Assembly: GCA_022821585.1 (NCBI GenBank)
Contig: JAJEDI010000022.1
Span: forward strand, 1 to 64,000
Length of the DNA: 64,000 nucleotides
Direction: 5' to 3'
Origin: Caldilineaceae bacterium
GTDB lineage: Bacteria > Chloroflexota > Anaerolineae > Caldilineales > Caldilineaceae
The notes below the pieces were generated by a model. The model searched no databases. It was given only the letters and a program-made list of their open reading frames with translations, and was not told the origin of the DNA. Shown piece by piece: positions 21,582-61,449 of the stretch (positions are counted from its first letter, which is position 1; each line of letters opens with the position of its first letter). Both the position numbers and the translations under genes were made by a program.

Positions 21582-22883
21582 TCAAGGTGAGATTTCCAGC
21601 CGGTAAATGTTACCGTTGTCGCTGTCCGTAACAACAAGAATCCCCGGCCCGCTTGCAGTAATCCCGACCAGCTTCCGCAACGGCTTTCCCTCTGCAAGCA
21701 CCCAGGCTGCCAGGTCCTCGACGTCGTCCCCCGAGATTCTCAGGATGCCGCCCTGCTCAGGCTGGGTAACATAGACTGTCCCCTCGCTGTCGAGGGCTAG
21801 GTGAGGACCGTCCATACTGTTGGCTGTTACCAAGGGCCACAGATTCAACAGCTCCCCAGCCTCGGTAAATCGCAGCACAGAAGTCATTCCCGCGGTCGAC
21901 ACAAAGACAGAGCCGTCAGATCGGTAAGCAACATCGACCGGCTGCAGGTCCGTTCCTTCAAAATCGGTCGAAATGCGAACCAGTTCCTGACCCAACAGGT
22001 CAAACGCGGCAACAGCCAGCGCAGGCGTCATGGCCAGCCAGATCCGCCCAAAGCCGTCAACGTCGAGCCCTCTGCTCCGGTCTGCCGTCTGGGCGGGAAT
22101 GGGAATCACTTCTTGGAACTCGCCGCTAGGCCCGTGAACACTTACCTGGCCCCCTGCGCCGGCATCCAGCACGTACACATTCCCCGCGCCGTCTGCCGCA
22201 ACATCAACCGGCTCGACAAGGGGACGGTCCGAGTGCTCTATCTGGGCAATCGGCTGCCCTTCGCCATCCAGGATGATAAGCGCCCTTCGGCTTGGATCGA
22301 CCACATAGATGTTTCCATTCGAAATGGTCACCCCTCGCGGTTGCGCAAAGTCGGCACTTACCGTCTCGAAGTCGGTGGTCTTCTCCTCACCTGTAAACGG
22401 TGTGACGATCTCCAACGGCAAGGCCATGCCCGGCACGCCCCCGGGTACCGCCTCGCTGCTTACCTCTTGCACATTTGGCGGTACCTGTGAATCCGCCTTC
22501 CTGAAATTGTCTCTGGCCACTGCGCCAACTAGGACCACCAGCAACAGAAGCGGACTCCCGCTCCAAAGGATGAGCGCTTGAATTCCGCCGCGTACCTTCT
22601 TCTGAAACGTAGCCCGATGGCGTTTTGATTCAGGGTACGGTCTCGACCCGCCAACCGGCCCAGACCTCGCCTCCGTGCCACCTTCTGCGCCAAACCCGCT
22701 ATCGGGTCCCAACGTCTCTTCGCCTGCCTCAACGGGAAGGACTACCTCCAGGCCTTCGGCATCATGCTCTGCAGCACTATCCCTTGAAGACAAGGCCCAG
22801 CCGCACTGGTCGCAGAATCTGGCCTCACTTCTGACTGAAGATTCGCATCGGGGGCAGACTACCACCGGCTCTTCTCTCAACAT
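21582..22883 (-). CDS. Zinc-ribbon, single-membrane-span, NHL-repeat protein
   Basis: 433 aa from the ATG at 22883; the frame extends to a TTG at 22976 (464 aa). Near the N-terminus is a zinc ribbon with two CxxC pairs (CPRCESS, FCDQCGWAL). An acidic, disordered stretch follows, then one membrane segment (ILWSGSPLLLLVVLVGAVA), placing the C-terminal ~270 residues outside the cytoplasm. That part is an NHL-type beta propeller with repeated VDVAADGAGNVYVLDAG-like units. It matches the C-terminal propeller of the next gene upstream almost unit for unit, including DRSRG, TPALAVAAFD, LNLWPL and DGPH, so this looks like a copy of that protein that has lost the glycosyltransferase and PA14 parts. 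The ligand of the propeller is unknown. Confidence 0.82.
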   Translation of the reverse strand: MLREEPVVVCPRCESSVRSEARFCDQCGWALSSRDSAAEHDAEGLEVVLPVEAGEETLGPDSGFGAEGGTEARSGPVGGSRPYPESKRHRATFQKKVRGGIQALILWSGSPLLLLVVLVGAVARDNFRKADSQVPPNVQEVSSEAVPGGVPGMALPLEIVTPFTGEEKTTDFETVSADFAQPRGVTISNGNIYVVDPSRRALIILDGEGQPIAQIEHSDRPLVEPVDVAADGAGNVYVLDAGAGGQVSVHGPSGEFQEVIPIPAQTADRSRGLDVDGFGRIWLAMTPALAVAAFDLLGQELVRISTDFEGTDLQPVDVAYRSDGSVFVSTAGMTSVLRFTEAGELLNLWPLVTANSMDGPHLALDSEGTVYVTQPEQGGILRISGDDVEDLAAWVLAEGKPLRKLVGITASGPGILVVTDSDNGNIYRLEISP

Positions 22884-23116
22884 GTCTTTCCCGGGTTGTC
22901 CAAGATCTGCGTCCGGAGGTCTGAAGTCCCGCCGCAAAGCAACTTGAGTATTGGAGGCGATTACGCTAAACAACAACGCCTTCGATTAAGATCGACGCGC
23001 GCCCGCATTGAGACCGCTAGCCCCATTAGCATTCTTGCTGGCCCCCGGTTCCCGAGCGCACGACCATAGCCAGCCCGCAGAGACGGCTCGTCTGGCCCGC
23101 CCGCTTGTCGCTCCGT

Positions 23117-26100
23117 CTACGGCGAGACCGGAACGCGGTATATGAGCCCGTTCTCGCTATCGGTCAGCAACAGATTGCCGCCAGGTCCTACGCTAACGCC
23201 AACAAGCTTTCGGACCGGTTGACTGGCGGGAAGCGCCCACACAACGATATTCTCGTCATCGTCCAGCGGGATCCGCACAAAACTTCCCAGTTCCGGCTGG
23301 GTCACGTATAGTGTCCCGGCCTCGTCAACCGCCATGTGTGGGCCGTCGGCGCTGTTTGCCCTGGCCAGTGGCCACAGATTAAGAGCTTCGCCCCCAATCG
23401 AAAAACGTATGACCGCTGTCGTGCCTACCGATGAAACGTAGACGGCATCGTCGGCATGGTAGGCCACGTCGACCGGTTGAAAGTCCCCTTCGCCAAAGAC
23501 TGTCGTAATGCGAGCCAGCTCCCGACCCTCCACGTCAAATGCCGCCACCGCAAGCGCAGGAGTCAAGGCCAGCCAGATCCGACCCGCCTCGTCGACGTCA
23601 ATTCCTCTGCTCCTGTCCGCAATGTTATCAGACAACGGAACCGCTCGCACAAAGTCGCCCGCCGCATCATGGATCGACACCTGCCCGCCGCCTCCCGCGT
23701 CAAGAACATAAATGTTGCCGGCCTTATCGGCCGCGACATCGACCGGTTCGCTGAATCTTCGATTTGAGCGGCGAACCTGTGCGATCTCCTGACCGCTGGG
23801 ATCCAGGACAAACATAGACTGCTGTCCCGGATCAACGACATACAACATGCCGTTTGCAGCCACTACCCCCCGGGGTCGCTCAAAAATGTCGCTTACACTT
23901 TCAAACGCAGCCGTCTCCTCACCCTCCACCGGCAGAAGCGACACATTCATAGGTAGACCTGCCAGCGACGCCTCCGACGTTCTGTCGAAAATCGCAAGGT
24001 CCTCTATGGACAAATGGTCGTAGTTGCCCTGTGGGGGAATAAGCGCTTCAGCCTGCACCAGCGTGCGCTCCTGTCCCGGCGGCGCCCAGTGGAGGTTGAC
24101 ATGATAGTGAGACGTGCGCGCCACATAGCGGATCCGAATGTCATGCAGTCCTGCAGTAAGAGTGATCGAGTCCTCATCGTACTGATTCGGTTCGGGGCTA
24201 GCCGCCACCGCGATTTCGTCGATCCACAGCTCAGACTCGTCGATTGACTCAATCCCTAAGCGGTAGACACCTTCGATCGGCACAGCCAGCTTTCCCTCCC
24301 ATTCCACCGTATACGGACGCGGCAGCGGAATATCGTGAAAATAGAGATTGATCTGCGGGTCAATGCGCGTAAACGCCGGCGGACCCTGCCAGTCCCCATT
24401 GGCATAGTACCTCCCCAAAAGCCCGTTGCTCGTCACCGGCGCCACATGCAGTGCAGACGACGGCACGATCTGCTCCTCCTCCCCAGGACGCTGCCACGAA
24501 AGCGAAACCGCGCCCTCACCGCCAACCGCCCGCAGGCGAATACTGTGCAGGCCCAGGGCCAGCTTCAGGGCCGCCGTGGCCTCCTGGCTACCTGCTGCCC
24601 GCCCGCCTTCGCCTCCTTCACCAATCTGGGCCACAAGCTCTTCGTCTATGTACAGCTCTGCAGCCGCCGGAGCCCGCAGAACAATCTTGTGCGGCCCGTA
24701 CTCCTCGATGTTGAGAATACCCGTCCACTCGGCAGAATAAGGCCCTGAGAGCGGCGCTCCGCCGGGCCAGTTCACCGAAACCGTAGCATGTCTCTCGACA
24801 GCGACCGGGTCGCCAGCCCACGCGTCACCCTCAAAATAAGAGACCTCCACGCCCTGTATCGATGTGATGTCCGCAGGGCTGAGACGGGCCTCATACAGGA
24901 CAGTGGGTCCGCCGAAAGGCGGCCTATGCTCTATAAACTCGCCGTTCGGGTAGAAGTTGCGCGCCTGCTCAAAGAAACTCCGCCGCTCAGGGTCCATGAG
25001 GAACAGCGCGTTTCGATCGGACGAGAGCGGCATCGGCAGCGTCTCAGTGTACTTGATCGCCCGATAGTACGGCACCGTGCTGCCCACGAAACGCACTGAC
25101 GGATGTCCTGCATAGTGTGAGGTGAGATAAACGTTCGTGTCAACGCTGTCCACGTGTTCTGCGACCACAGTCGCTGCGATAGTCTCCCCTGTGGAGTAGG
25201 CGTTCCAAACCGCGAAGTCGTTCACCTGCCGAACGAAGTACGTTCGATAATTGTATACTCCCACCGCCGCCAGCAGCACAGCCGCAAACAAGACAGGCGT
25301 GCCCCGCCACAGAAACAATTGCCAGAACCAGCCTGCAATCCCCCTGTTCATTGAGGCGACCCGACCCAGGCGCTTTTCGACGCCTGTCTCCCCTTCCTCC
25401 CCCAGACTCCACCCGTGGAAAGAGGCCGCTCGCCAGTTTTGCCACAACAGCGCCAGGGGAAGCAAAACGAGCAGATACGCGACCGGCAATGTCCCGATGG
25501 CTCGCAGCGACTGTGGCGCCTCAAAACTGAGCGAAAAAACACCCCCCGCCAGCAGACCGAAAAACCACAATATGAGAAGCAGAAATCTAGGACGCCAGAA
25601 GCGGCTGAGACTGAGCCCCAGTCCCAGCACGAGCAGCCCCCCGGCCACCGGAGCCAGCATCGGTTCCCCTGGCAGGTTGTGGCGCCCGTTTGGATCGCCG
25701 CGAACGTTGTACATCAGAAGATGTGCTGCCGCGTTTTCCCGTACTTTTTCCCAGACCTCGTCATCCGAGTACTCCTCAAATATCGAAACGGTTCGCGTGC
25801 GCTCCAGATACCGGTCAAGTCTTGCGAACGCGAAAGTTGCCAGCGGCGCTAGGAAAAGCAGGACGCCCATCGCCAGTACGACGAGCCCCTTCCACTGCGA
25901 AAGAATGAGCGTCCACTTCGAAATCAAGAGAAAGAGTACAAAAGTCGACACCACCGCAAGAAAAAGCTGGAAGGCATAGTACGTATTGAGGCCGAAGCCC
26001 AGGCACAGTCCGGCCCAGAGATAGTCGGTGATCCTACCTCTGCGCAGCGCCTTGAACAGTAGGCCGATCGCCAGAAAAACAAACAGCGTCATCAGAATGT

Positions 26101-27436
26101 TGAACATGCCGATTCGGCTGAAATTCACACTCCAGCGGGAGACCGCGACCAGAAGGGCGAGTACGAGCGCAGGACCGCGGCCAAACAACTGGCTTCCGGC
26201 CAGGTACGCGGCCGGCACCGACAATACACCCGTGATGACTGTGGCTAGGCGTACTACAAATGTGATCTTCGGCAATAGCATGAACAGAAAGGAGACCAGA
26301 TACACGTAATGTTCCGGCCCCATCAGCGCGCTCACATAGAGCGGGCGATAGTCCGGCTCACTCAGAATCCGCTGTGCCTCCAACCCGGCCGTAGCCTCGT
26401 CATACCAGGTGCCCGCAGGAAACTCCGGCAGCAGATAGACCCGCATAAACATGCCGACGCAGATGATCGACAAGACCAGCAGACGCTGGCCTGTGCTCCA
26501 GGGACGCTTCTCTCCGTCTGATCCCGGTTCCGGCTTCGAGGAGAAGGTAGTTGCATGACTTCCCCCGGTACCTGGCATCACACCGTTTGCTCGCTTGCTC
26601 AGAGCTCTCTGAGCAAGGTACACACCTCCTATAAAAAGCGCGACGCTCAACCAGTGCAACTGCCAGAACAGATCGGGGGGGCGGTCGGGGTTGGTCAGTA
26701 ACCGCTCCAACGACCAGGCCGCGGCCGCTCCCGGAATGAACACCACGGCAAGCAACCACAAAGTGCTGAAGCGCCTTAGCTGCTCGTGACTGCCCACCGC
26801 TGGCAGCGGGAAGTCTGTGCTTCTTCGAAAAGCCCACAAAGCCAGCGCGATTGCAATACCGAATAAGACGACCGCGGGCAGCCTCTGCCCGCCCCCAAGC
26901 AGCAACTGGCCGCCCACTGCTCCGGCAATTGCGAGAACACCCAAAAGAACGTTTGCTCGGACTGTCGCCGCAGGACCAATGTGAGCAACCTGTTCAAGGG
27001 TAACTGTGTCACCGACGCCAGGCGACCCCCTCGCACCCGATGGCTTCAAAACCTCACCAGGCCCGGGTCGGACAGGGGCGCCCAACGGTTCCAGCAGCCT
27101 CGCCAATGCCGGTACCCGATATGCGTTCGCAACGCGGTCGACCAAGGCACGCATTTGTGAGGGGATAGAAGCGCGGGAAGCCGGCCCCTCACCGAACACA
27201 CCCCGACGGCCCGCCTCCCTACTCGCTTCCGCCGAGCTGGCCCCCTCTGCACTCAGCGCCGTCCCGCACTCATGGCAGAAGCGCTGCCCATTCACACACT
27301 CCTCGCCGCATTGACCGCAGATCAAGTTGTCGGGAAGTCGTTCCCCGCAACTCTCGCAGAAATTCGCCGCTGGTCGGTTGGCGCACCAGCACGAAGTGCA
27401 GGTCCTCTGCCCCCGGACTCTTTCGGAATTCAGCAT
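23117..27436 (-). CDS. Zinc-ribbon - GT39 glycosyltransferase - PA14 x2 - NHL multidomain membrane protein
   Basis: 1439 aa. Residues 11-62 are two zinc ribbons (Cys13/16, 27/30, 40/43, 54/57). About residues 165-275 hold several hydrophobic helices. Residues ~320-720 form a GT-C fold, PMT/ArnT-like (GT39) membrane domain with the acidic catalytic motif YDEA near 346 in the first outer loop. About 870-990 and 1005-1130 are two PA14-like beta domains (YFEGDAWAG; LLGRYYANGDWQG; LYIDEELVA; LWIDEIAVA). About 1150-1439 is an NHL propeller. A lipid-linked sugar donor and an outer-surface acceptor are expected from the family, with PA14 and NHL possibly binding glycan. I know of no described protein with this order of parts. 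The start is an ATG with a weak ribosome-binding site. Confidence 0.87.
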   Translation of the reverse strand: MLNSERVRGQRTCTSCWCANRPAANFCESCGERLPDNLICGQCGEECVNGQRFCHECGTALSAEGASSAEASREAGRRGVFGEGPASRASIPSQMRALVDRVANAYRVPALARLLEPLGAPVRPGPGEVLKPSGARGSPGVGDTVTLEQVAHIGPAATVRANVLLGVLAIAGAVGGQLLLGGGQRLPAVVLFGIAIALALWAFRRSTDFPLPAVGSHEQLRRFSTLWLLAVVFIPGAAAAWSLERLLTNPDRPPDLFWQLHWLSVALFIGGVYLAQRALSKRANGVMPGTGGSHATTFSSKPEPGSDGEKRPWSTGQRLLVLSIICVGMFMRVYLLPEFPAGTWYDEATAGLEAQRILSEPDYRPLYVSALMGPEHYVYLVSFLFMLLPKITFVVRLATVITGVLSVPAAYLAGSQLFGRGPALVLALLVAVSRWSVNFSRIGMFNILMTLFVFLAIGLLFKALRRGRITDYLWAGLCLGFGLNTYYAFQLFLAVVSTFVLFLLISKWTLILSQWKGLVVLAMGVLLFLAPLATFAFARLDRYLERTRTVSIFEEYSDDEVWEKVRENAAAHLLMYNVRGDPNGRHNLPGEPMLAPVAGGLLVLGLGLSLSRFWRPRFLLLILWFFGLLAGGVFSLSFEAPQSLRAIGTLPVAYLLVLLPLALLWQNWRAASFHGWSLGEEGETGVEKRLGRVASMNRGIAGWFWQLFLWRGTPVLFAAVLLAAVGVYNYRTYFVRQVNDFAVWNAYSTGETIAATVVAEHVDSVDTNVYLTSHYAGHPSVRFVGSTVPYYRAIKYTETLPMPLSSDRNALFLMDPERRSFFEQARNFYPNGEFIEHRPPFGGPTVLYEARLSPADITSIQGVEVSYFEGDAWAGDPVAVERHATVSVNWPGGAPLSGPYSAEWTGILNIEEYGPHKIVLRAPAAAELYIDEELVAQIGEGGEGGRAAGSQEATAALKLALGLHSIRLRAVGGEGAVSLSWQRPGEEEQIVPSSALHVAPVTSNGLLGRYYANGDWQGPPAFTRIDPQINLYFHDIPLPRPYTVEWEGKLAVPIEGVYRLGIESIDESELWIDEIAVAASPEPNQYDEDSITLTAGLHDIRIRYVARTSHYHVNLHWAPPGQERTLVQAEALIPPQGNYDHLSIEDLAIFDRTSEASLAGLPMNVSLLPVEGEETAAFESVSDIFERPRGVVAANGMLYVVDPGQQSMFVLDPSGQEIAQVRRSNRRFSEPVDVAADKAGNIYVLDAGGGGQVSIHDAAGDFVRAVPLSDNIADRSRGIDVDEAGRIWLALTPALAVAAFDVEGRELARITTVFGEGDFQPVDVAYHADDAVYVSSVGTTAVIRFSIGGEALNLWPLARANSADGPHMAVDEAGTLYVTQPELGSFVRIPLDDDENIVVWALPASQPVRKLVGVSVGPGGNLLLTDSENGLIYRVPVSP

Positions 27437-27521: not shown

Positions 27522-29444
27522 TTATCCTCTGAGGTGATATACCACGAATAGCGGTTCGGGCCCTTCGTCGACGATCAATTCCCCTCCCGGATACATCTCC
27601 ATGATCTTGTCGATCTCTTCCACGTACGGCCCCTCCAGCAGGTAAGTAACCGGCCCCGGATCTAGTTTCTCCAGATCGAAGATACCAAATTCCCTGGATC
27701 TGTCGATTCCATTGCTATCCGGGTAGAGGAACCGAATGGTCTCATATTGGAACCTTCGCTGTCCCGAAAAATAGTAAATTGTCCCGGGGTCGTCAAAAGA
27801 GTGGGCCGCGTCCAGTGACTCAAAATAATACGTAGGGAACGTCCACCGAAACGTCGATGTCAGCGGCAATTCTATGAAATAATAGCTGAGATTCCACACC
27901 GCGCTCACCAGCAGTACGAGGATCGAAGCGCTGACCGCGGCTGCTCGGCCCCAGTCTCCTATGCGGCGCTGCCCGAACTGGATGATCTCCCCGGCGCCGA
28001 CTCCGGCCAGACCGAAAACCCATGGAATCGCGGTGATGCTGCGCCGCATCGAACCGGCCGAAGGATCAGTGAGCACCAGACCAGAGAGAGCGGCAAAAAC
28101 GATCAGCGCGGCCATCAAATGGGGTGGACTGCGCCATCTGCGAACTGCAACAATTAGTCCAAGATACGCCAGCAACGCGATGCTTACGTCCAGTGCCCCT
28201 ACGCCCCCGATCCCATCCACACCGTCAGTTCGCGGGTTCCGCAGCAACAGCGAAGCGGCCTCCCACGCCCGCTCAACTAGGAATTCTGCCTTCTCTCCAA
28301 AGCCGGCCGCGTTCACATACTCGTGATAGTCCCACACCGACTTCTGATTCATTCGCCCGAAAAAGGCGTCAGGCGAACGCAAAGCGAACCGTATTACAGG
28401 CGCCGCGCTCAGTGCTGCGCCTAGCGCCAGCAGCGAAAGAGGGAGAAGCTTGCGCTTGAACGACTCCCTTTGCAAAAGAAAGTACAGTAGCGTCGCCGCA
28501 CCCATCGCAGCCAGGAATGTTGGAAAGGCAAAGTAGGTGTAGGGAATAAGGCCCAGCAGCACACCGGCTGCAAACCAGCTCCACATGTTTCTGCGCCGAT
28601 CCCCAGGACTTCCGGCATCGTAGGACTTCATCGCCCACAGCAGCGCCGCCGCCGCCGCCGTCGACGCGAAAGCAAGCGGGACCACCCCGAAGCCCAAACG
28701 GCTGAAATGCAGATGCCAGTAGCTCACCGTTAGTGCCGAAGTCCCGAACAGCGCGATCCAGCGTCCAAACCCTGTCCTCAAAAGAAAGTAGGCCGTCGGT
28801 ACAGTGGCAATGCCGAATAGCCCCATCGACAGCCGGACCGAGAAAACGGAGGCATCCAGCAGCCAGATCAGAGCTGCGGTAAGGTAGAATGGCCCCGTCA
28901 ACTGACCCAGCGCAGAAGAGGTATAGGGTCCAATCCAGCCCTCCCGCAGAATCCGCAGACCCTCGATGCCCGTCAAGGCCTCGTCTCCGTGAAAGCCGGC
29001 AGGGATCTCGTCGAGTCGAAACACGCGCAGAAACGCCGCAGCGACCGTCAACAACGCGACCGCCACTATTTCCCAGCGATTCCGCCCCGCCCAAGCCGAC
29101 ATATGCTGGCGTGACCACCTCCAGTCGTGGAAGGGCGCTTCCCAGACAAGCCCCCGGCGCGCTACCTCCCTGCGAACAGAAGACATCCAGGGCAGGAACC
29201 GGTTCCTGATGCCAGGATCTCCGCTTTCCGGAGAAACGCCCCCGTAAATCGTGGCGCCGCACGTATCACAGTACTCGTGTCCACCGGGATTCTTTTTGCC
29301 GCACTGGGGGCAAGACACATCCAAGGGCCTGCCGCAGCGCCCGCAAAACGCAGCGCTCGACCGGTTGAGGAACTCGCAAGCATGACAGAGCCAAGGCTCT
29401 GTCGAAGCACCTATGTCGCTGTCCTCAGGAGAAGTAAGAGACAA
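27522..29444 (-). CDS. Zinc-ribbon - GT39-type membrane glycosyltransferase
   Basis: 640 aa. Two zinc ribbons occupy residues 19-66 (Cys20/23, 34/37, 45/48, 59/62). From ~110 on there are a dozen hydrophobic segments of the PMT_2/ArnT type, with the acidic motif GDEA at 153-156 in the first extracytoplasmic loop, as expected for the catalytic Asp of GT-C enzymes using polyprenyl-phosphate sugars. A small soluble domain of ~100 residues ends the protein (FDDPGTIYYFSGQRRFQYE and onward). The only start before the ribbon is TTG at 29444, without a clear ribosome-binding site. It is a paralogue of the larger neighbour downstream but lacks PA14 and NHL parts. Substrate unknown. Confidence 0.85.
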   Translation of the reverse strand: MSLTSPEDSDIGASTEPWLCHACEFLNRSSAAFCGRCGRPLDVSCPQCGKKNPGGHEYCDTCGATIYGGVSPESGDPGIRNRFLPWMSSVRREVARRGLVWEAPFHDWRWSRQHMSAWAGRNRWEIVAVALLTVAAAFLRVFRLDEIPAGFHGDEALTGIEGLRILREGWIGPYTSSALGQLTGPFYLTAALIWLLDASVFSVRLSMGLFGIATVPTAYFLLRTGFGRWIALFGTSALTVSYWHLHFSRLGFGVVPLAFASTAAAAALLWAMKSYDAGSPGDRRRNMWSWFAAGVLLGLIPYTYFAFPTFLAAMGAATLLYFLLQRESFKRKLLPLSLLALGAALSAAPVIRFALRSPDAFFGRMNQKSVWDYHEYVNAAGFGEKAEFLVERAWEAASLLLRNPRTDGVDGIGGVGALDVSIALLAYLGLIVAVRRWRSPPHLMAALIVFAALSGLVLTDPSAGSMRRSITAIPWVFGLAGVGAGEIIQFGQRRIGDWGRAAAVSASILVLLVSAVWNLSYYFIELPLTSTFRWTFPTYYFESLDAAHSFDDPGTIYYFSGQRRFQYETIRFLYPDSNGIDRSREFGIFDLEKLDPGPVTYLLEGPYVEEIDKIMEMYPGGELIVDEGPEPLFVVYHLRG

Positions 29445-29590: not shown

Positions 29591-32500
29591 TCAATTGACC
29601 GCAAATACGAGGATACGATGGTTGTCCGCGTCCGCAACCAGAATCTCACCAGTGAGCGGATCGACCGCAATGCCGGTCGGCTTGGCAAAGCGGTTGAGAT
29701 CGCCGCCATACCTCCCAAAGCTGGACTGGATATCCCCGCCGGATGACATCACATAGATCTGCGCAAACTGCGGGTCCGAAGCATAGACAGTACCGTCGGC
29801 TGCCGCCGCAAGAAACGGCTTGTCCCATATCTCCTGGCTCTCCCAGGTAGGAATGAGCCACTCAAATAAGGGGACCAGCTCTGACGAAAGCACCTGGATC
29901 CGGCAGTTCCAGGCGTCACTGACCAGAACATTCCCGGTCGGCGGGTGGATGGTGACGTCCACCGGTTCCTCAAAATGGCCGAGGATCAAGCCGCCTCCGC
30001 CGACCTGACGCACGAACTCTCCCAGTGGACTGAACTCGATAATGCGTTTGTTCCCGGTGTCCGCTACCAGCAGGTTGCCTGCCCGCGTTACCGCCAGACC
30101 CCGCGGGCCAAATAGTGCGAAGGGGTCCCTGTTGTCTTCGGTAATTACGGTGAAACTCCCCCATTTGCGCACGAAATTCCCCTGGCTGTCAAAGACCTGA
30201 ATGCGACCGTTCCAGGTGTCAGCCACAAAGACAGTGCCGTCAACCCCAACGGCGATACCCCACGGTTCTCGAAATTGACCGTCACCCAGTTCAAGAGGTC
30301 CATCTCCGTCTGGATCGACGCAGCCCCTGCTTGCGCCCTCCTCCAGAAAACAGGTACTGCCGAAAGCAACCCGATATGTACCGTCGGAGTTCAGCACAAC
30401 AACGCGGTTATTCCCCGTATCCAGAATGTAGCGCTGCCCGTCCGCCCCTATCGCAATATTGCGCGGGTTGGCCAGTGGGACCGCGTCGTAGAGCCCATTG
30501 TACTCTAGGCTGGCGGTCCGATCTATCTCATCATAGCTGAACGCTCGCGACTGCGATGTTCCTCCCCCGGCCGTGGGAACAACGTTCAAGTCCCACACCA
30601 GTTCGGCTATGTCCCTGCGAACGTACATGCGGAAATCATGTCGGTGGGGCCACGCCGTCAATGTCCTGTCGGGATGATTGCGGAAGAAAAAGATCTGCCA
30701 AAGGCGGTTGCGTCGCTCACCATCTCTCAATGCGCCCCATATCTGCTCTAGAGTCAGACCTTTCGACTTCTCACCGTCCCACTCACCCTTGTAGCTCTCC
30801 TCCGGCCACCACACAAGCCGGTAGTTACGGCTGACATAGTCGCGGCCAACGTACGGCTCGACCTTCCCATAGTTCTTCTTGCCGACAAGGATGATCGGTG
30901 CGCTCATCGCTTCAGTAGTCGGGTTCGCGCCGTAGAAGATGTGATTGGGATAGAAGCGCATGTACCATGTCATCGGCCAGGCAACGTCATCGTCATAGGA
31001 GACCTGAATCTCGCGTTCGCCAACCGTCCGTTCGCTTATCGTCTCAATCTCCTCCAATGCCCGCTTTACGTCCGGCGCTGCGTGGGCATAGACGAGATAT
31101 TCGGTTGCCATGTCGTAGTTGACGTACGTGAGCAAATACGAAAATCGAATGGTTAGCAGAAACAGTATGGTGAATCCTGTCACCGCAGTAAGCCGCAACG
31201 TCAAGCGCCAACCTGAGCGCAGGTAGGCCAAATACATGTAGTACAACAACGCCCCCATCAGACCGAGAGCAAGGATAAAGCGAACAGACCGCGATAGCAT
31301 TTCGACGTCCCGGACGCGGCCGGGTATCGAGCCGCCCAGCGTCGCCGCTACAAATAGCAGTGCCGGCAGCAGCCCCAGTATCCACCAACTCTGCGTCTCC
31401 CGCACCCTTTTCCAGTCAATCCTACGCAGGATCTCTGCCCCCCACCAACCTCCGAAGAGCGCCATTGGCTGGGTCATATGCGTCGTCAGCCATGGCATCT
31501 TCTCTCCTGCATAGGAATATGACAGCCAGGCTCCGACCCCCCACCAGGCGAGAAAGAGCACAAAATATGGCCGCACAATCAAAGCCCCGGTCCCGCTATC
31601 TGTTTCGGACCGGCCGTCGCCATTTCTATCCTTACCTTCGGAACCGGGCGCATCTTGCCCCGCTCGGGTCTGACCCCACCATTTGCCATGCAGAAGCCGG
31701 TGCGTGAGCAGCGTCGCGCCTCCCAGGCTGAGAATGAGAGGCACGAATTCATAGAGCAAGCTCTGCATTATGTAGTAATACCACGGCTGACTTCCCCGCT
31801 GGACCTCCTGCTGCGCAAGCCAGTAACCGAGGCTGCCAACGACGCCTGTCGCAAGTCCGTCAACCGGATTAGTGAAAAACGTCGTAAATAGCAGGATCTC
31901 GATCGCCCAGAACAGCGCCATGAATATGGCCCAATTCGAAAAAGTGATCCGTGGCTCTTGCCCGTTACCGGCGGGCGAACGGGCCCCGTCCTTGCCCTGC
32001 CTGGCCGCACCGAACCACCAGTAGGCAATTGCCCCGCTGAGTCCCGTCATCAGCAGCACCAGCGCGGCCGACCTCGCCAAATCCTGGGTCGTGCTATACG
32101 CGAGTGCATCCCAACCGAGCAAAAGGTGTCCGAGCGGCGCGGCAAACGGCAGTACAAGAGTCAGGAGCAGAACCGCTATATCCCCAAAGGAACTTTCTCG
32201 AATCCCCTCCCGTCCCGTCCACCAGCGCCAGAGGGCCGCTCCTACCATGAAAACGCCAAAAATCGTACCCGACATGAACTGGTTTTCCTTTGCTGCAAAA
32301 CCGAGCGCCATGGCGGTCACGGTATAATAGAGCCACTTCATCTTCCGCTCTTCTACATAGCGGAACATGCAATACACCCAAATCATCGAGAAAAAGACGA
32401 TGTAAATGTCGTTCCGTATGTAGCGGCTGTGAAAGAGTATGCTGGGACTGAAGAGGAGGAGCAGGGCCGTCAGCAGCGCGCCCGTGCGCCCGATCCACCG

Positions 32501-33004
32501 TCGGAACAGCCAGGTAACTGCGACCGTCCCAATGCCTGCCAGGGCCGGCATCACTCGTGCCGTGGCATCGCTGACGCCAAACAAAAAGTAGATTAATGCA
32601 TTGGCGTGGAAGAGAAAGGGCCCATGCATCATCGGATTGTGCTGATAGCTGCCATTCCGATAGAGATCGAGCGAGTAAACCGCGTGCAGACTCTCGTCGT
32701 GGCTCATCCCCCGGACGCCGAGCGCATAAAACCGGCTGACGATTGCCACAACCAGGATGACCGCCCAGGCCGCGGTCTCCCAATTGGCCCGCAATATGGC
32801 CAGTGGATTCCTGTCCAGAAAACTATCCGGCGTCACAACAGCTTCCGTCTGACTGGAATCTCGAGAGTCCTGGCTAGGCAGGGCTTCCCCCGAATCTTCC
32901 CCTTGCTCCTCAGCAAGAAGAATTCCACTAGAGGTTTCATGAAGCTCCTTCTCGGAGACTTCGTTCCCGGCCTTTTCTTGCTCTTCGTTTCTTACTTCAG
33001 CCAT
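29591..33004 (-). CDS. Agl23-like GT39 family membrane protein fused to NHL propeller
   Basis: 1137 aa. After a charged cytoplasmic N-terminus (~70 residues) comes a membrane domain (~75-640) with the TIGR03663 (Agl23) signature: RGMSHDESLHAVYSLDLY with Asp103/Glu104, then NPMMHGPFLFHANAL. In archaea, Agl23-type proteins are linked to protein N-glycosylation and lipid-linked sugar handling. A soluble segment (~640-780) leads into six NHL repeats (~790-1137; units such as ILDTGNNRVVVLNSDG, VADTWNGRIQVFDSQG, VADTGNKRIIEFSPLG, VADADNHRILVFAVN). GGAGAGG lies 6 bases before the ATG, and the upstream gene ends only 3 bases earlier, so the two are translated together. The propeller probably faces outward. 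The role in sugar transfer is inferred. Confidence 0.88.
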   Translation of the reverse strand: MAEVRNEEQEKAGNEVSEKELHETSSGILLAEEQGEDSGEALPSQDSRDSSQTEAVVTPDSFLDRNPLAILRANWETAAWAVILVVAIVSRFYALGVRGMSHDESLHAVYSLDLYRNGSYQHNPMMHGPFLFHANALIYFLFGVSDATARVMPALAGIGTVAVTWLFRRWIGRTGALLTALLLLFSPSILFHSRYIRNDIYIVFFSMIWVYCMFRYVEERKMKWLYYTVTAMALGFAAKENQFMSGTIFGVFMVGAALWRWWTGREGIRESSFGDIAVLLLTLVLPFAAPLGHLLLGWDALAYSTTQDLARSAALVLLMTGLSGAIAYWWFGAARQGKDGARSPAGNGQEPRITFSNWAIFMALFWAIEILLFTTFFTNPVDGLATGVVGSLGYWLAQQEVQRGSQPWYYYIMQSLLYEFVPLILSLGGATLLTHRLLHGKWWGQTRAGQDAPGSEGKDRNGDGRSETDSGTGALIVRPYFVLFLAWWGVGAWLSYSYAGEKMPWLTTHMTQPMALFGGWWGAEILRRIDWKRVRETQSWWILGLLPALLFVAATLGGSIPGRVRDVEMLSRSVRFILALGLMGALLYYMYLAYLRSGWRLTLRLTAVTGFTILFLLTIRFSYLLTYVNYDMATEYLVYAHAAPDVKRALEEIETISERTVGEREIQVSYDDDVAWPMTWYMRFYPNHIFYGANPTTEAMSAPIILVGKKNYGKVEPYVGRDYVSRNYRLVWWPEESYKGEWDGEKSKGLTLEQIWGALRDGERRNRLWQIFFFRNHPDRTLTAWPHRHDFRMYVRRDIAELVWDLNVVPTAGGGTSQSRAFSYDEIDRTASLEYNGLYDAVPLANPRNIAIGADGQRYILDTGNNRVVVLNSDGTYRVAFGSTCFLEEGASRGCVDPDGDGPLELGDGQFREPWGIAVGVDGTVFVADTWNGRIQVFDSQGNFVRKWGSFTVITEDNRDPFALFGPRGLAVTRAGNLLVADTGNKRIIEFSPLGEFVRQVGGGGLILGHFEEPVDVTIHPPTGNVLVSDAWNCRIQVLSSELVPLFEWLIPTWESQEIWDKPFLAAAADGTVYASDPQFAQIYVMSSGGDIQSSFGRYGGDLNRFAKPTGIAVDPLTGEILVADADNHRILVFAVN

Positions 33005-33007
33005 CGA

Positions 33008-34954
33008 CTACCTCTCCCCTATCACCCAAAGTTCTACCTCTCTACGCGCCGGAGTGCCTCCCGCAATCTGCTGTCTTTCCCGATATAGCATCCAACGCAA
33101 GAGAGCTCCGGGACTCTCCAACTCTGTGGGCAGCCAGCGCTGTGTCACAGTGTAACTGCTTCCTACGAAACCGGCGGGCAGAAGGTCACGATTGCCTTCG
33201 TTCCCCGAGGTGCCCTGAGTAACAACCAGGGCGTCAGTCTCAATCCCAGTCAAGTCGATTCCCGGGTGCAAGCGTAGATCGCGCATGGTCCGCAGATGCC
33301 AGTAAAAGAAAGGCAAGTAGGAATATTCAACTTGCAAATAGATCGAAGCCTCTGTGGGATCTCCTGTTCGCAGCGAGCTTAGTCTGGCAATGTCTTTTGC
33401 CAGCAAAGCCATCCCGCTGTCGCCGGCCTCAGCATACAGTGTGCGGCTATGGTCGTATTCCGGACGCAAATTCAGCATCCAACTGCTGCTGGCCTGGGCC
33501 AGAATAAGCGCACTCAAGGTCAGAAATCCGAAAACGTGGAGGCTGGCCCGTCCTCCCGACCACCAAACGAAAAACGCGCCTAGCGCTGGAATCAGCAGAT
33601 AAAAAGTGGCCAGTCGGGGATCGAAGTTGCCGTCGCGAAGCGAAACGCTGATTGTGCCCGTCCAAAAAAAAGCTGTTATCAGCAATATTCCCATCGTGGC
33701 CAAGGCCGGCATCCGAGAGCTGTCCCCAATCAGCGCCCCCATCGGAATCGCACGCAACAAGCGCGTTGCCGTCCCCGCCGCCATCAGCAGCAACGGCAGC
33801 CCTGTCACAAGCAGGTTGACTGGTGTGCGGCCCGGCAGCAAGATCAACAAGAGGCCCCAGGCCACACCGACTGCCAGGACATTATGCCAAATGGCGTCTA
33901 CCCGGACTCCTCTCTCAGTTTTGACGGCCTCGTCCTCGTTGTTATTCCGTGCTGACGGGCCTGCTACGGAGAAGGCTGTCCCGAAAAGGGCAATTGCCAT
34001 CCCCGAGACGCCAAACAACAGTAGGAGCGGCTCATCAACGAACAGCCTGAGCAGCGCCCAATCGACAGTGTAACCGTGCTCGGCAAGCAGGATCCCTGCA
34101 GTCCCTGACGAGCCCACCAGGTGGGCGACTGCAGTCCCAACGCTTTCTCCGATGGCCGACAAGCCCGAGAGGTTCGAAAAGAGCCCCGTCGACCCGACAA
34201 CGACAGTCAGGGCGCAAATGACCGCCCCCCGCCTGCTCTGGCTCGGGGAAAGATTCGCTAGCGGCCCCCCCTTGAGCAGGTAGAGGGCGTACAACAACAC
34301 CGGCAGCAGGAGCCATGCTAGCGGTCCGCTGATCAGGTAAAGCCCTCCTGTCACCGCCAGCCAATCCAAATGCCGGCCGTCTTTCCCGCCGTCAAACAGT
34401 GCCGCCAGCAGAATCAAGCCAGTCAGAACCGACAGTGTCGCCCCATCGGCCATTCGGCTGAATGAAAGCAGCCACGGATCGATCGCAAATAGCGCTGCAG
34501 CCATCAGCGCAGCCCCGCGCCCCATGCGCCTTCTCAGCGTCCACGCGGACAGAACAAGCCCCGCTCCCGCACATGCCGGCGCAAATCGGGCCCAAAAACT
34601 GCTCCCGCCTCCCGTAACCAGAAAGAGCGCTCGCTGAACCGTATGCAATAACGGACTGGCAGGAGGGCCCGGTTCCGGTAGCCCGCTCTCCTCCAGCGCG
34701 CGGGCCGACTTGTCCAGCCAGGCAGGCCAGATCTGGGCAGCCTCCAAGGGCGATACGGCGTTTAGGTCGCCCAGGGAATACAGGCGCAATCCCAGCGCCA
34801 GCACGAAAAGGAGCGCATAGAGTGCCTGTTCAACAGTCGCCCCTTTCCCCTGCAACCCTGTCGCCGGCGCGCTGTGTTCCCGCCCGGCATCGGCGTGGCC
34901 CCCATCCCCAAGCACTATTCCTTCCGTCCGTTCAGCTGTCTTACCTCGTGTCAC
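33008..34954 (-). CDS. GT39-like membrane protein with altered acidic motif
   Basis: 648 aa with about 12 hydrophobic segments from residue 42 on and a short soluble C-terminus (~105 residues). The arrangement is that of GT-C family proteins, but where active members have HPDE or HxDE in the first outer loop this protein has SPLE at 68-71, so the Asp is missing and only Glu71 remains. It may be inactive, or use the Glu. It starts at GTG with CAGGA 7 bases upstream, 30 bases after the DUF2298 gene, and ends 3 bases before the Agl23 gene, so it is in the middle of an operon. Possible roles are an accessory or scaffold subunit of the neighbouring glycosyltransferases. Confidence 0.8.
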   Translation of the reverse strand: MTRGKTAERTEGIVLGDGGHADAGREHSAPATGLQGKGATVEQALYALLFVLALGLRLYSLGDLNAVSPLEAAQIWPAWLDKSARALEESGLPEPGPPASPLLHTVQRALFLVTGGGSSFWARFAPACAGAGLVLSAWTLRRRMGRGAALMAAALFAIDPWLLSFSRMADGATLSVLTGLILLAALFDGGKDGRHLDWLAVTGGLYLISGPLAWLLLPVLLYALYLLKGGPLANLSPSQSRRGAVICALTVVVGSTGLFSNLSGLSAIGESVGTAVAHLVGSSGTAGILLAEHGYTVDWALLRLFVDEPLLLLFGVSGMAIALFGTAFSVAGPSARNNNEDEAVKTERGVRVDAIWHNVLAVGVAWGLLLILLPGRTPVNLLVTGLPLLLMAAGTATRLLRAIPMGALIGDSSRMPALATMGILLITAFFWTGTISVSLRDGNFDPRLATFYLLIPALGAFFVWWSGGRASLHVFGFLTLSALILAQASSSWMLNLRPEYDHSRTLYAEAGDSGMALLAKDIARLSSLRTGDPTEASIYLQVEYSYLPFFYWHLRTMRDLRLHPGIDLTGIETDALVVTQGTSGNEGNRDLLPAGFVGSSYTVTQRWLPTELESPGALLRWMLYRERQQIAGGTPARREVELWVIGER

Positions 34955-34984: not shown

Positions 34985-37612
34985 TTACCTTTCAGACGCG
35001 CCCTCGGCGCTGTATATTCGAAAGTCGCCATGTTCAAATGCCAGTTCGAGCACCTGGCCGAGTCGGTTTTCCAACACGGGCGTAACGCCGTACTGTGCCC
35101 GCTCCTCCGGTCCGACCAGGACATAATCAATCTGCCATCGGTCCAGCGTCTCCTTCAGCGTGGACGGCCTGGGAAACTGGTATAACTCCTGGATAGCGTC
35201 GGCCCGTCCCGCCGCCATCTCTCCATAGGCGCGGCCCCGCCACTGGGCCTCGTGCCCATCCCATCCCAGCAACGTTGCCCGGCCCGTTGCTGCGCTGATT
35301 CGCGCCGTATTGACCCTGTAGCTGGCCCCCTTGGCCTCCAGTACGACCGCCTCCGGACGCGTATTTCTCCTGATCCAGTCGATAACCGTCAGCTCTTCAT
35401 CACCTACGTAGGCAAGTCCATTGAGTGTGGGCTCACGCGTGCCGGAGTCCTTAATCTTAGCATAAGCCCCGGCCACCGGATACACAAGGCTCGCAAGGAC
35501 CAGCAGGAGTGAGAGAGCGGATGGCACGAATCCTGCTAAGGGAACCGCCGCCCAGTCCCCTTCTCCCTGCCGAATGCGGCGTCCCGCTAGCTGGACGTAC
35601 CTCGCGATCGTATATGCCGCCGCGATGCCGAATAACAACCAGCTCTGATAGTAAAACTTGAATACCGTATTCATCCTGTTGCCAAAATTGTCGCGCAAAT
35701 ATACAAACTCCGGCAGATAGGTCAGCAGGCAGCCGATTGCAAACAAGCACAGGACAAATGTGGTCGGCTTGGCGCCTCCGCCTTGCACCGTCAAGCGTTG
35801 CCAGAGCATCCCCAGCGTCAGCGACGTTAGCCCCCCCATGAGTAGAAACGTCCAGGGCTCTCCTATTCGCCGCCGGACGATGTTTGCCAGCATTTCATCG
35901 GCACCGGCCGCAGAGTTTGCCGAAAGCAGCCCGGTCGTCACCAAGAAGACAAGCGGCAAGCCCAGGACCAGGACCGCCGCCGCCAGCAGCACAGCCGCCG
36001 CTGGCCTCGATTCCCGCCAGCCTATGACCAGCAGGCCCACGCCTGCCAGCAGAAAATGTCCGAACATCACCAGAAACTGCGGCAGTCGCGTCGGATGTAA
36101 CAGGTTGGGCAAAATGCCGCCGGCCTGGCTCTGCGCGGTCAGAAAGTAGGGCAAATACAGCAGTAGGGCGCCCAATACAACCAGGACGCCAACGGTCGCT
36201 GCCCGTGACAGCGCCTGACGCACCGCCGCCGCGACTTCCCCGGTCTGACGAATGCCCGTCAGCATCGCCACCAGGACAAGCAGGAGCCAGTACGGTGGAA
36301 AGTCCCACGTATTTAGAAAGATGAGTCCGCCGGTCGCGGCGACAAGCAAGAGAAGCCCTGCCGCACCCAACGGCTGCGACACAGATCTGACCTGAGCTAC
36401 AGTCCCGGTAAGAATGGGGCCGATCCACCCTCTCCCCTCCCCTTCGCATTTCTCCTGGCGGCCCGCCTCATCGCCAAGCTTCTCCCTGTCCCCGCTGAAC
36501 CAGTTCAAGGCAATGCCCACGACCAGAAGCACAAATGGCATGGCCAGCAAGTGGGGGTGATTGTCGGAGAGCACGTAACTGAAAATCGGAAACTCGTCGA
36601 TGACTTCAATATGGTTTCCATCGAGGTCGAGATCCTCTATCACTCGGCTCGCTCGCCACCACCAGCCCCAGCCGCTGTCAATGTACCATTTGTTGGTCAC
36701 AAATGATTGCTCTGGAAAGTTATAGACATCTACCCACCGGATTAGGGCGTTCATCTGCACACCCTGTGCATAGAGCCACTCGAGAAGAACATGCAGATTT
36801 GAAGCCAATGCGACCGCGACAGCCGTCAGCAGACCTGCCATGAAAGGGAATGCTGCCGTTGCCCTGTCAACAGTTCTCCGGACAGTCCAGGTTTCCGGCT
36901 GGCCGGCTTCCCCGTTCCCGTCTTCCTTCTCTCTGGAATGCATTCGAAGCAGGTTGTACCCCACACCAAAGCTTGTCGTGACCAGTAGGCCGAACCAGCA
37001 CGCCTGCCCCAGGTTGTAGGCAATTTCAGGCGGCTGTCCTGCCAGATGGGCCAAGGTCGAAATCATCCAGTAGCCGAAATAATAGTAGCTGATCGCATAG
37101 CCGGACAGCCACGGGTCCCGCGGCGGATACGTAGCGCTGCTCCAGATTCCGTTTATGAACATCAGGTCCATCGGCTGTTCGGTGTGGCTGATCGCTGGAT
37201 CGTACGATCGAACTCCCGTCCACACCGCGAAGGCAACCAGAAACAGGAGCTCGACACCCACAACATAGCCCCAGGAAGGCAATAGCTTTCGTGTCCATCC
37301 CGGCCCCAAACGTGCACCCTCCTCACCGCCCGCTCTTCTATGCAGCAAAGACCAGACGCTGAGCAGAGCGACGAGCAGAAACGCCACCCAGGCCCCCCCG
37401 GACGTATTGCGAAGCAGGCCATAGCTTGTTCCCAGCCACAGCAGAAGGCTCACCAGAAATATCCCCAGCACCCGCGAAAAGGCATATCCACGATCCGGCA
37501 AGGCGCAGAAGCACCTTAGCGTCAACCCCATCGCCGCTACGCTCACAGCCTGCGTGATCGCATACCAGCCCAGGAATGCAACCGCGATCTCACCCACGCC
37601 GCGCGCCCCCAT
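34985..37612 (-). CDS. DUF2298 (Chlor_Arch_YYY) membrane protein
   Basis: 875 aa, with some 15-18 hydrophobic segments. It carries the DUF2298 signatures: DRGYAFSRVLG near residue 40, MDLMFINGIWSSATYPPRDPW near 147, AISYYYFGYW, and NTVFKFYYQSWLLFG near 660. The soluble C-terminal ~110 residues include ISAATGRATLLGWDGHEAQWRG. The family is found in Chloroflexota and archaea, often beside GT39 glycosyltransferases, and is thought to be a membrane glycan-assembly protein, but no reaction is established. The start at 37612 has no clear ribosome-binding site. It lies 96 bases after the NUDIX gene and 30 before the GT39-like gene, all on one strand. Confidence 0.88.
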   Translation of the reverse strand: MGARGVGEIAVAFLGWYAITQAVSVAAMGLTLRCFCALPDRGYAFSRVLGIFLVSLLLWLGTSYGLLRNTSGGAWVAFLLVALLSVWSLLHRRAGGEEGARLGPGWTRKLLPSWGYVVGVELLFLVAFAVWTGVRSYDPAISHTEQPMDLMFINGIWSSATYPPRDPWLSGYAISYYYFGYWMISTLAHLAGQPPEIAYNLGQACWFGLLVTTSFGVGYNLLRMHSREKEDGNGEAGQPETWTVRRTVDRATAAFPFMAGLLTAVAVALASNLHVLLEWLYAQGVQMNALIRWVDVYNFPEQSFVTNKWYIDSGWGWWWRASRVIEDLDLDGNHIEVIDEFPIFSYVLSDNHPHLLAMPFVLLVVGIALNWFSGDREKLGDEAGRQEKCEGEGRGWIGPILTGTVAQVRSVSQPLGAAGLLLLVAATGGLIFLNTWDFPPYWLLLVLVAMLTGIRQTGEVAAAVRQALSRAATVGVLVVLGALLLYLPYFLTAQSQAGGILPNLLHPTRLPQFLVMFGHFLLAGVGLLVIGWRESRPAAAVLLAAAVLVLGLPLVFLVTTGLLSANSAAGADEMLANIVRRRIGEPWTFLLMGGLTSLTLGMLWQRLTVQGGGAKPTTFVLCLFAIGCLLTYLPEFVYLRDNFGNRMNTVFKFYYQSWLLFGIAAAYTIARYVQLAGRRIRQGEGDWAAVPLAGFVPSALSLLLVLASLVYPVAGAYAKIKDSGTREPTLNGLAYVGDEELTVIDWIRRNTRPEAVVLEAKGASYRVNTARISAATGRATLLGWDGHEAQWRGRAYGEMAAGRADAIQELYQFPRPSTLKETLDRWQIDYVLVGPEERAQYGVTPVLENRLGQVLELAFEHGDFRIYSAEGASER

Positions 37613-37708: not shown

Positions 37709-38215
37709 CTATTGACAATCGCCGTCACCTTCAACGCGCAGAAGCGCCTCCTGAACAACCTGCCTGCCAAAGGGTTCCATGGGCGGCAGTTCATCTGCGC
37801 CAAAAAATTTGGCCTCGAGCACCTCCACAGGGTCGATCTCCAGCTGTCCCCCGCTGATTCGCCCCAGCAGATAGAACTCCAATACACGCCGTGTCGCCCG
37901 ATGGCATACAACCTCTTCCTCAGACGTCACAAGTGCCAGCTCCTCCTTCACCTCCCGCCGCCAGCACTCGTAGATGGTTTCCCCGGGAGACAGCCAGCCG
38001 CCGGGCAGCCCCCATATCCAGTGGTTGTGAAAGCGGTGGCGCAGCAGCAGGACCCGGCCTTCTTCGTTCAGTAGCACGCCGCTTACACCGACAATCACTT
38101 TGCCGGCGATCGTCCAGGTAACTGCCCCGCTCAGCCACTGCGGTGCCCGCCGCCAGATGCCTGCCGCCAGCGGCGCCATTCGACTGAGTTGGCCCATCCG
38201 CCTTCTCCCCCTCAT
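37709..38215 (-). CDS. NUDIX hydrolase
   Basis: 168 aa. It has a full Nudix box, G-x5-E-x7-REVKEEL, with the metal-binding glutamates, near residues 73-95 (GGWLSPGETIYECWRREVKEEL). Family members split nucleoside diphosphates linked to other groups, including nucleotide sugars. Its start overlaps the stop of the large GT39-DUF2298 gene (ATGA), so it is translationally coupled; a second in-frame ATG at 38197 preceded by GGGGGAGAAGG is a good alternative. Its place inside a glycan-assembly operon makes a nucleotide-sugar or polyprenyl-phosphate substrate plausible, but that is inference. Confidence 0.9.
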   Translation of the reverse strand: MRGRRRMGQLSRMAPLAAGIWRRAPQWLSGAVTWTIAGKVIVGVSGVLLNEEGRVLLLRHRFHNHWIWGLPGGWLSPGETIYECWRREVKEELALVTSEEEVVCHRATRRVLEFYLLGRISGGQLEIDPVEVLEAKFFGADELPPMEPFGRQVVQEALLRVEGDGDCQ

Positions 38216-43170: not shown

Positions 43171-43554
43171 TGGTTTCCCACATACACAACCACGGTAAGT
43201 TCGAATTCCTGAGCCTGCAGACAGCAGTTGGCAATTTGCGATCCGTCCACCAATTTTATCACGGTCAACCGCGAACATAGCGACACAATGTCCACTCGAT
43301 CGGTGCTGCCCTCGGCACGCACTGACAGGGCACGACCCAACGCAGTTCAGAGTTGTCTCGTGGGATAGTTTGCTCTGGCCTGACAGGAATCTCCCTTCAC
43401 GACCGATTACTTTCAGGGACTGCACTTCGAGCTAAGGCGAGGAACTGCCTCGGGGAGGGAGCAGGAACTTCAGAGGCGCGGCGCAAAACAAAACGTGCCG
43501 ACCGAGCATTCAGTTGGCACGTCTGTCTTCTGCTGCCTGGCACCGCTGTTTCAA
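43171..43554. other. Intergenic region upstream of the GT39-DUF2298 fusion gene
   Basis: This 384 base gap separates the 3' end of the YabE-like gene from the start of the long glycan cluster, both on the minus strand. It should contain the main promoter of that cluster. A TAAAAT box lies near 43253-43258 as read on the minus strand, but no convincing -35 accompanies it. No gene or repeat was recognised; the open frame in the right half is antisense to the YabE-like gene. Confidence 0.4.
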
Positions 43555-47156: not shown

Positions 47157-47374
47157 AGAACTCTCCAAAGCGTCTGACTGTCCTCGCTGGGACTTTCTGA
47201 TTCCACACTCTCCAACTACGCGTAAAGACCCGTCACCCTTGCTCCCACACCCCTCCAGACTCCCTATCGTCACCTTCTGCGGTCGTGGTAGATTAGCAAA
47301 GACGGCCAAGCGTAGCAAATGCCGGCTGCCAGGCATCTGACCACTGAACACGAGCCACCAACCACTGCGTTTCT

Positions 47375-47433
47375 GGGCGGTCGGGCCTTCGGCCCTCCCT
47401 TGTGCAGGGGCTTCGCCCCCGCAACGCCCCCCC
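47375..47433 (+). repeat. GC-rich double-hairpin intergenic repeat, copy B (left half)
   Basis: It begins GGGCGGTCGGGCCTTCGGCC and continues with CTCCCTTGTGCAGGGGC, TTC, GCCCCCGCAACGCCCC. It matches copy A over the two hairpins but ends in a C run where copies A and C continue for another ~70 bases. Confidence 0.78.
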
Positions 47434-47711
47434 CCCGGAAACATGCCTCGGCGAAAGTGTGTCGCCATTGGTCGCTGGTGTCCAGTTGAGAGTGTCTCGG
47501 TAGACCAGGCCCTCCAGTCCTATCAAGTCTCCGCAGGTGTCGGTCTCGTGCCTGCCGCGGGCACGCCCAACTGAAGGACCTCCCGGTATGGCCGGGCTCG
47601 GCGGCGGCCCTCTGTCTCTCCAGGAGCAGGTAGTCAGTTCCAGCCGCCGCTGGCATGGGTTCCCGCCGGCTTGTTCCCACTCCAACTCTGGGATTAACCC
47701 TGCTCTGGAAT

Positions 47712-47739
47712 TTGCCGACCCCTTGGGATATGCTAGAAT
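47712..47739 (+). promoter_or_regulatory. Candidate sigma70 promoter for the plus-strand sulfatase
   Basis: TTGCCG (47712-47717) and TAGAAT (47734-47739) are 16 bases apart. Transcription would start near 47746, leaving a leader of ~58 bases before the GTG start at 47804. Confidence 0.4.
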
Positions 47740-47803
47740 CTGCCCTGAATTCCCTGGCTACATTTGATCCCATCGATCCTCTTCGCGCTTGGAGGAGTAG
47801 CAC

Positions 47804-53838: not shown

Positions 53839-53950
53839 GCGGTCTGTACAGGATCTCCGTCGCAAAGGCAGGTCATTTCCCGCGACGACCTGGCACCCCT
53901 TCCCAGCCAGTGAACACTCTCCCACTGGCACTGTGACAGGAGTCCGGGCG

Positions 53951-55714: not shown

Positions 55715-55807
55715 GCAGAAGAAAACTACACCCCCAGCGATCGCCCGGAGAGCAGTAGGACATAAGAAAATCAAGTGAGACTTGCTGCGGACGTCCAGAG
55801 GAATGAA

Positions 55808-61333: not shown

Positions 61334-61449
61334 TCCGCCGGCATTCGCATCGAAGCTCTTGGCCCAATCCCTTCTGGCACTTTGAACCGACTTCAACAAA
61401 GCCGTCCCGCCGTCTACAAGGCCAACCTGTCCCACCGAATGAACCCTCT

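Follow-up and report, generated by a model that had tools for sequence, protein, structure and literature searches.

The 64,000-nucleotide stretch of Caldilineaceae bacterium DNA analyzed here (contig JAJEDI010000022.1 of assembly GCA_022821585.1, referred to below as the window) harbors at positions 23117 to 27436, on the reverse strand, a gene whose 1439-residue product, the target of this analysis, joins a double zinc ribbon to a GT-C (PMT_2) membrane region, two PA14 domains, and an NHL propeller. We propose that this protein is probably an extracytoplasmic polyprenyl-phosphate-sugar transferase of the GT-C type, in which the PA14 pair would bind glycan, the propeller would act as a scaffold, and the ribbon would serve for cytoplasmic docking. 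The order GT-C, PA14, PA14, NHL is widespread in the Chloroflexota, and only the ribbons are new.

Domain layout of the target

The open reading frame begins with ATG and contains zero internal stops. In a whole-protein Pfam scan, it matched PMT_2 (PF13231; 53.9 bits, cut-off 26.1), PA14 (PF07691; 73.4 bits over two stretches, cut-off 24), and NHL (34.3 bits, cut-off 20), with DZR (PF12773) at 25.9 bits, slightly below its cut-off of 27.3; in the genome scan, DZR at positions 27263 to 27400 reached 35.9 bits, above that cut-off. Hidden Markov model scans thus recovered every domain named in an earlier note on this DNA, which had described a single 1439-residue protein with ribbons, a glycosyltransferase, two PA14 domains, and a propeller, DZR exceeding its cut-off in the genome scan only.

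From the N terminus, the double zinc ribbon occupies residues 13 to 58 (positions 27263 to 27400), with its four CxxC pairs at residues 13 to 57, and is predicted to be cytoplasmic. It is followed by a fast-evolving linker (residues 61 to 145; 27002 to 27256) and, as judged by hydropathy, by an N-terminal hydrophobic segment of three or four predicted helices (residues 146 to 300; 26537 to 27001), which is also present in orthologs that lack the ribbon and to which alignments start at residue ~160. The GT-C core (residues 315 to 733; 25238 to 26494) contains the motif WYDE (residues 344 to 347; 26396 to 26407) with the putative catalytic D346, the family signature RGDPNGRHN, probably in an external loop (residues 579 to 587; 25676 to 25702), and the final transmembrane helix (residues 707 to 725; 25262 to 25318), the last being assigned by hydropathy and by its match to the transmembrane helix of a 464-residue paralog described below. 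Beyond the core lie the first PA14 domain (about residues 862 to 1000; 24437 to 24853), the second PA14 domain (residues 1003 to 1130; 24047 to 24430), which is both the best PA14 stretch and the most strongly conserved domain, and the NHL-type beta-propeller (residues 1165 to 1439; 23120 to 23944), all on the reverse strand.

By sequence, the membrane region belongs to the GT-C superfamily

Enzymes of the GT-C type use polyisoprenol-carried sugars, and several of them require an acidic motif located in the first external loop (PMC6801728). In the target, WYDE comes after the helix at residues 319 to 337, i.e., in the first external loop past the first core transmembrane helix, and D346 and E347 are retained in nearly all of the 58 proteins aligned; the core motifs RGDPNGRHN and EAPQSLR are retained across the family in the Chloroflexota. 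PMT_2 was matched at 1e-3 by 35 of 37 full-length orthologs. By sequence, the membrane part is accordingly assigned to the GT-C superfamily of glycosyltransferases. The earlier note had called it GT39. GT-C membership and the acidic loop motif bear out part of this, but the label itself derives from the Pfam name; because PMT_2 is a broad GT-C family, GT39 proper is not established, and PF02366 (PMT, CAZy GT39 proper), matched by nine of the 37 orthologs, was absent from the target's matches at E 0.1.

The nearest solved structures found with the family profile are archaeal AglB (3waj; E 2.7e-4) and TMEM260 (E 0.63, not significant). These matches, together with that of an STT3 model to four of the 37 orthologs, favor an alternative in which the target is a protein oligosaccharyltransferase or O-glycosyltransferase that moves a glycan or sugar to exported proteins, its PA14 domains and propeller binding the protein acceptor. 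However, the WWDxG motif of STT3/AglB occurs in none of the 58 aligned proteins, for which reason membership of the oligosaccharyltransferases was rejected; the archaeo_STT3 model scored 14.7 on the target against a cut-off of 450; and carbohydrate binding is known for a tandem PA14 pair (PMC4711584). Protein glycosylation consequently appears unlikely as the function of the target. With TIGR03663 (Agl23), for which the cut-off is 126.25 bits, the target scored only 28; as the name Agl23 also covers unrelated proteins in the literature, literature matches on that name were not used.

The PA14 pair and propeller, predicted to be extracellular

Both PA14 halves of the target match the PA14 dyad of RsgI3 (6qdi and 6qe7) in a direct PDB sequence search, and the PA14 pair of an AlphaFold2 model of the C-terminal part matches the same dyad by fold. 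The RsgI3 pair has been reported as pectin binding (PMC4711584). The model has a mean predicted local distance difference test (pLDDT) score of 65, its quality falling from good in the propeller through fair in the second PA14 domain to weak in the first. Within the propeller, pLDDT is mostly 70 to 93; structural matches include the propellers of Brat/TRIM NHL and of Pizza6, with a TM-score on the target of about 0.8, the best being Brat NHL (E 4.9e-15). Both the two PA14 domains and the NHL propeller of the earlier note are, therefore, borne out by Pfam and by structure. A precedent exists in AftD and other large GT-C transferases that bear carbohydrate-binding domains externally (PMC8035078); coupled with the WYDE and GT-C features and the RsgI3-like PA14 pair, it leads us to read the target as a transferase that may hold its acceptor.

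The domain joins are genuine and under selection

The source genome was assembled in 102 contigs, so that domain joins produced by assembly or frameshift error, a possibility which the earlier note had itself raised, had to be considered. The genus was sampled through 17 genomes, whose four named records are Caldilineaceae metagenome bins. The whole protein, including all eight ribbon cysteines, is encoded by nine further genomes of the genus with 61 to 89% identity, two of which (G017 and G019) are single-contig assemblies, and the eight cysteines are retained in all 11 genus sequences aligned. The ratio of nonsynonymous to synonymous substitution rates (dN/dS), calculated per domain by the Nei-Gojobori method for eight pairs, is rough for any single comparison since many dS values exceed 1; it was 0.04 to 0.22 for the ribbons, 0.35 to 0.81 for the linker (with 14 to 60% identity within the genus), 0.11 to 0.34 for the N-terminal hydrophobic segment, 0.03 to 0.07 for the GT-C core (0.18 against the most distant copy), 0.10 to 0.23 and 0.02 to 0.05 for the first and second PA14 domains, respectively, and 0.11 to 0.23 for the propeller. 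The contrast between a constrained ribbon and the drifting linker behind it was seen in eight of eight pairs. Every domain of the target except the linker between ribbon and membrane is thus under strong purifying selection, and this, in combination with the independent copies, refutes an artifactual origin of the joins, which we consider vanishingly improbable.

A widespread architecture with a genus-specific ribbon

Across the class Anaerolineae, the target was matched at an E value of ≤1e-40 in 102 of 298 genomes sampled, many of the matches being single frames of about 1200 to 1330 residues that align from residue ~160 or later through the propeller; additional matches were found elsewhere in the phylum Chloroflexota. 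When scanned singly, all 37 full-length orthologs contained PA14 and NHL, and only three, the genus members of that set, displayed DZR and the cysteine pattern. The earlier note had held the whole domain order to be novel; as GT-C, two PA14 domains, and NHL are common in the Chloroflexota, this claim is reduced to the ribbons. Among the 58 aligned proteins, the propeller is present in 46, the other 12 stopping at or nearly at the end of PA14, and the four N-terminal CxxC pairs occur in 11, all from the genus. Some of these loci are cut close to the gene start, and the open frames reported leave little room for a ribbon and linker. A scan of genome contigs for the architecture beyond the phylum returned only four near relatives, which does not in itself establish absence outside the Chloroflexota. 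The plasmid search matched the PA14 part alone, in several cases in glycosidases; the phage search returned no match, and a literature search for PA14 with a glycosyltransferase and NHL in Chloroflexi and similar terms found nothing.

A similar distribution was apparent for the ribbon of the neighboring 640-residue GT-C protein, for which ribbon-bearing matches in 199 genomes of the class were confined to the genus, the matches listed elsewhere starting after the ribbon. Within the genus, ribbons mark three adjacent genes of one conserved cluster (encoding the 640-residue protein, the target, and the 464-residue paralog) as well as another GT-C copy elsewhere; in the source genome (G000), this second ribbon-GT-C gene (L119, 8572 to 10464, contig C92) is 60% identical to the 640-residue neighbor. 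It is flanked by four similar genes resembling those for lipoprotein substrate-binding proteins.

In the source genome, ribbons occur more widely on envelope proteins. Among its other ribbon-bearing transmembrane proteins, two, encoded at loci L112 and L117 (contigs C34 and C96), are composed of a zinc ribbon, one transmembrane helix, and a region that reads as LysM-like; these proteins are unrelated to the target and would follow a plan with the ribbon inside and a glycan binder outside.

A transferase-free paralog retains ribbon and propeller

Adjacent to the target lies the gene for the 464-residue paralog (21582 to 22976, reverse strand; likely true start ATG at 22883), which consists of a ribbon, the last GT-C helix, and a propeller, without the transferase core and PA14 domains. 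Its propeller is 57% identical to that of the target, and in a propeller tree the 464-residue proteins group with the genus targets, to the exclusion of other genera, with support of 100/100. The single transmembrane helix, compared in seven copies, matches only the final GT-C helix of the target (residues 707 to 725) with scores of 56 to 79, the other target helices reaching at most 37 and 2000 shuffles of each at most 45. Ribbon and propeller are conserved, with a drifting linker. The simplest reading of these sequences is that the protein derived from a target-like ancestor by internal deletion, a fusion of the same pieces being possible as well. The forms of this type in G015 and G018 have a double ribbon and group weakly with the targets in the propeller tree (83/74), and may represent a second, separate case.

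Because only one helix separates ribbon from propeller in this paralog, the membrane lies between the two; given that a GT-C enzyme has its PA14 domains and propeller on the external face, the ribbons would be cytoplasmic. The topology given in the earlier note, with ribbons in the cytoplasm and the propeller outside, thereby gains independent support. The paralog also supports a role of the ribbon-propeller pair apart from catalysis, and bears on an alternative to the docking tag, namely that the ribbon senses zinc or redox state in the cytoplasm and thereby switches the transferase on or off. Retention of all eight cysteines speaks for such a sensor, yet the ribbon persists in a paralog without a transferase, so that it could serve independently of the catalytic core, and most orthologs lack one; a sensor is, on this evidence, distinctly unlikely.

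The 464-residue protein is encoded by 16 of the 17 genus genomes and the intact transferase by 10, the form with tag and propeller thus being better kept than the enzyme. A full target copy was not found in G008, G015, G018, and G020. The G006 copy (L160, 8016 to 12146, contig C68) is full-length but lies off the cluster, and D346 and E639, putatively catalytic, have been lost from it. G014 carries a stop in one target copy elsewhere and, in the cluster, remnants (about residues 727 to 835; L159, 6461 to 6893, contig C33) between the 640- and 464-residue genes. G009, a fragmented assembly to be read with caution, has a partial copy elsewhere and an in-place copy (L161, 3782 to 4967, contig C419) with a stop and without residues roughly 247 to 1190, which may reflect either an assembly join or a recent deletion resembling the origin of the 464-residue protein. 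Apparent frames of 1155 residues in G006 and 1343 residues in G014 had suggested a fusion of the 640- and 464-residue genes, but the DNA revealed separate frames.

The better retention of the transferase-free form, along with the loss of D346 and E639 in G006, could indicate that the target acts mainly as an envelope sensor or scaffold with a GT-C core that is no longer catalytic. Nevertheless, the core ranks with the most constrained domains, and the ten complete copies, like almost all relatives outside the genus, have their catalytic residues intact, making a noncatalytic target very unlikely.

Gene cluster and window neighbors

The target is embedded in a cluster of membrane protein genes, all encoded on the reverse strand. 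These specify a giant protein with PMT_2 and DUF2298/Chlor_Arch_YYY regions (38212 to 43425), a second DUF2298/Chlor_Arch_YYY protein (34985 to 37612), a GT-C-like protein of 648 residues with weak PMT_2 and TIGR03663 matches (33008 to 34954), an Agl23-type GT-C protein that likewise bears an NHL propeller (29591 to 33004; TIGR03663, 274.5 bits; NHL, 116.3 bits), and the 640-residue double zinc ribbon-GT-C protein (27522 to 29444; DZR, 35.1 bits, over cut-off), followed by the target and the 464-residue paralog; a NUDIX gene separates the two DUF2298 genes. Past the 464-residue gene lie an ilvD-type dehydratase gene and then a tyrosyl-tRNA synthetase-type gene. From the 648-residue GT-C gene onward, the cluster is retained in the readable genus genomes. 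In G011, the target is about 45 kb away from the 464-residue gene. Other genera of the family display, where the contig reaches far enough, the order DUF2298, GT-C, Agl23 with NHL, and a ribbon-less target, and beyond the family Agl23 or DUF2298 was located within 10 kb at about half of 20 loci read. The co-occurrence with DUF2298 and Agl23, which the earlier note had proposed as a check, is real insofar as the target sits beside both; however, 44 of 46 genomes of the family carry DUF2298, even in genus g2, where a close target ortholog is missing, and its link to the target is, therefore, not specific. DUF2298 is core and the target accessory.

Elsewhere in the window, two sulfatase genes in divergent orientation (45675 to 49258) stand beside the glycan cluster, and four adjacent genes encoding domains of the glucose/sorbosone dehydrogenase (GSDH) type, two with F5/8 type C domains, occupy positions 53792 to 63189.

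Proposed role of the target

We propose that the GT-C core acts on the external side of the cytoplasmic membrane, where it would take a sugar from a polyprenyl-phosphate carrier by means of the WYDE loop and transfer it to an extracellular acceptor. The likeliest acceptor is a lipid-linked oligosaccharide or a surface glycan under construction, which would be made jointly with the neighboring Agl23/DUF2298 cluster. The two PA14 domains may hold the carbohydrate acceptor much as the RsgI3 pair holds pectin, and the propeller may form an external scaffold of the same kind as that on the Agl23 neighbor. To this enzyme the genus has added the double zinc ribbon on the cytoplasmic side, as it has to two neighbors, and the likely role of the ribbon is docking, either among these proteins or with a cytoplasmic partner that makes the donor; the regulation or docking put forward in the earlier note is an inference.

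Several points weigh against this proposal. The AlphaFold2 model of residues 1 to 860, built from five close sequences only, has a mean pLDDT of 37.8, so that the GT-C fold assignment rests on sequence. The target is dispensable, as an intact copy was not found in 7 of the 17 genus genomes, and, given that ribbon-bearing transmembrane proteins are common in the source genome, the tag may be generic. The substrates and the partner of the target are putative, as is zinc binding by the ribbon. A further idea, which we offer tentatively and consider on balance doubtful, is that the ribbons on two GT-C transferases and on the transferase-free propeller paralog assemble one transmembrane glycan-building complex, the 464-residue protein being a dedicated scaffold carved from the enzyme.

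Surface-glycan GT-C transferases of the Chloroflexota appear almost unstudied in the literature searched, and the present family, widespread in the phylum, combines an enzyme, a glycan binder, and a propeller within a single polypeptide. The genus furthermore offers a natural experiment, having gained a cytoplasmic tag and having a paralog that lost the enzyme yet kept tag and propeller, which makes the role of the extra domains directly testable. A sponge origin of some genus bins is suspected from bin and isolate names alone, and a role at the host interface is only a thought.

Comparison with known systems

The AglB/STT3 oligosaccharyltransferases share a distant similarity in the GT-C core with the target but differ in their C-terminal domains and in possessing WWDxG. 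Another counterpart is OJX39484.1 of Chloroflexi bacterium 44-23, a PMT2/PA14 protein tabulated beside a DUF2298 gene (PMC8756737, Appendix 2), in which a PMT_2-type GT-C region is likewise joined to PA14; it is, however, a mere neighbor entry in that table, unstudied, with no mention of a zinc ribbon or propeller. RsgI3 resembles the target in bearing tandem PA14 domains (6qdi and 6qe7) outside the membrane on a membrane protein, but it is an anti-sigma factor and polysaccharide sensor rather than a transferase. Agl23-type proteins (TIGR03663), represented here by the gene at 29591 to 33004, combine a GT-C core with an NHL propeller in the same cluster, whereas zinc ribbons and PA14 were found in the target and not in them. 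AftD and similar enzymes possess other binding domains, a propeller and cytoplasmic ribbons not being reported there (PMC8035078); their likeness to the target, which is not a claim of homology, lies in a GT-C core coupled with external glycan-binding domains that are thought to hold the acceptor (PMC8035078).

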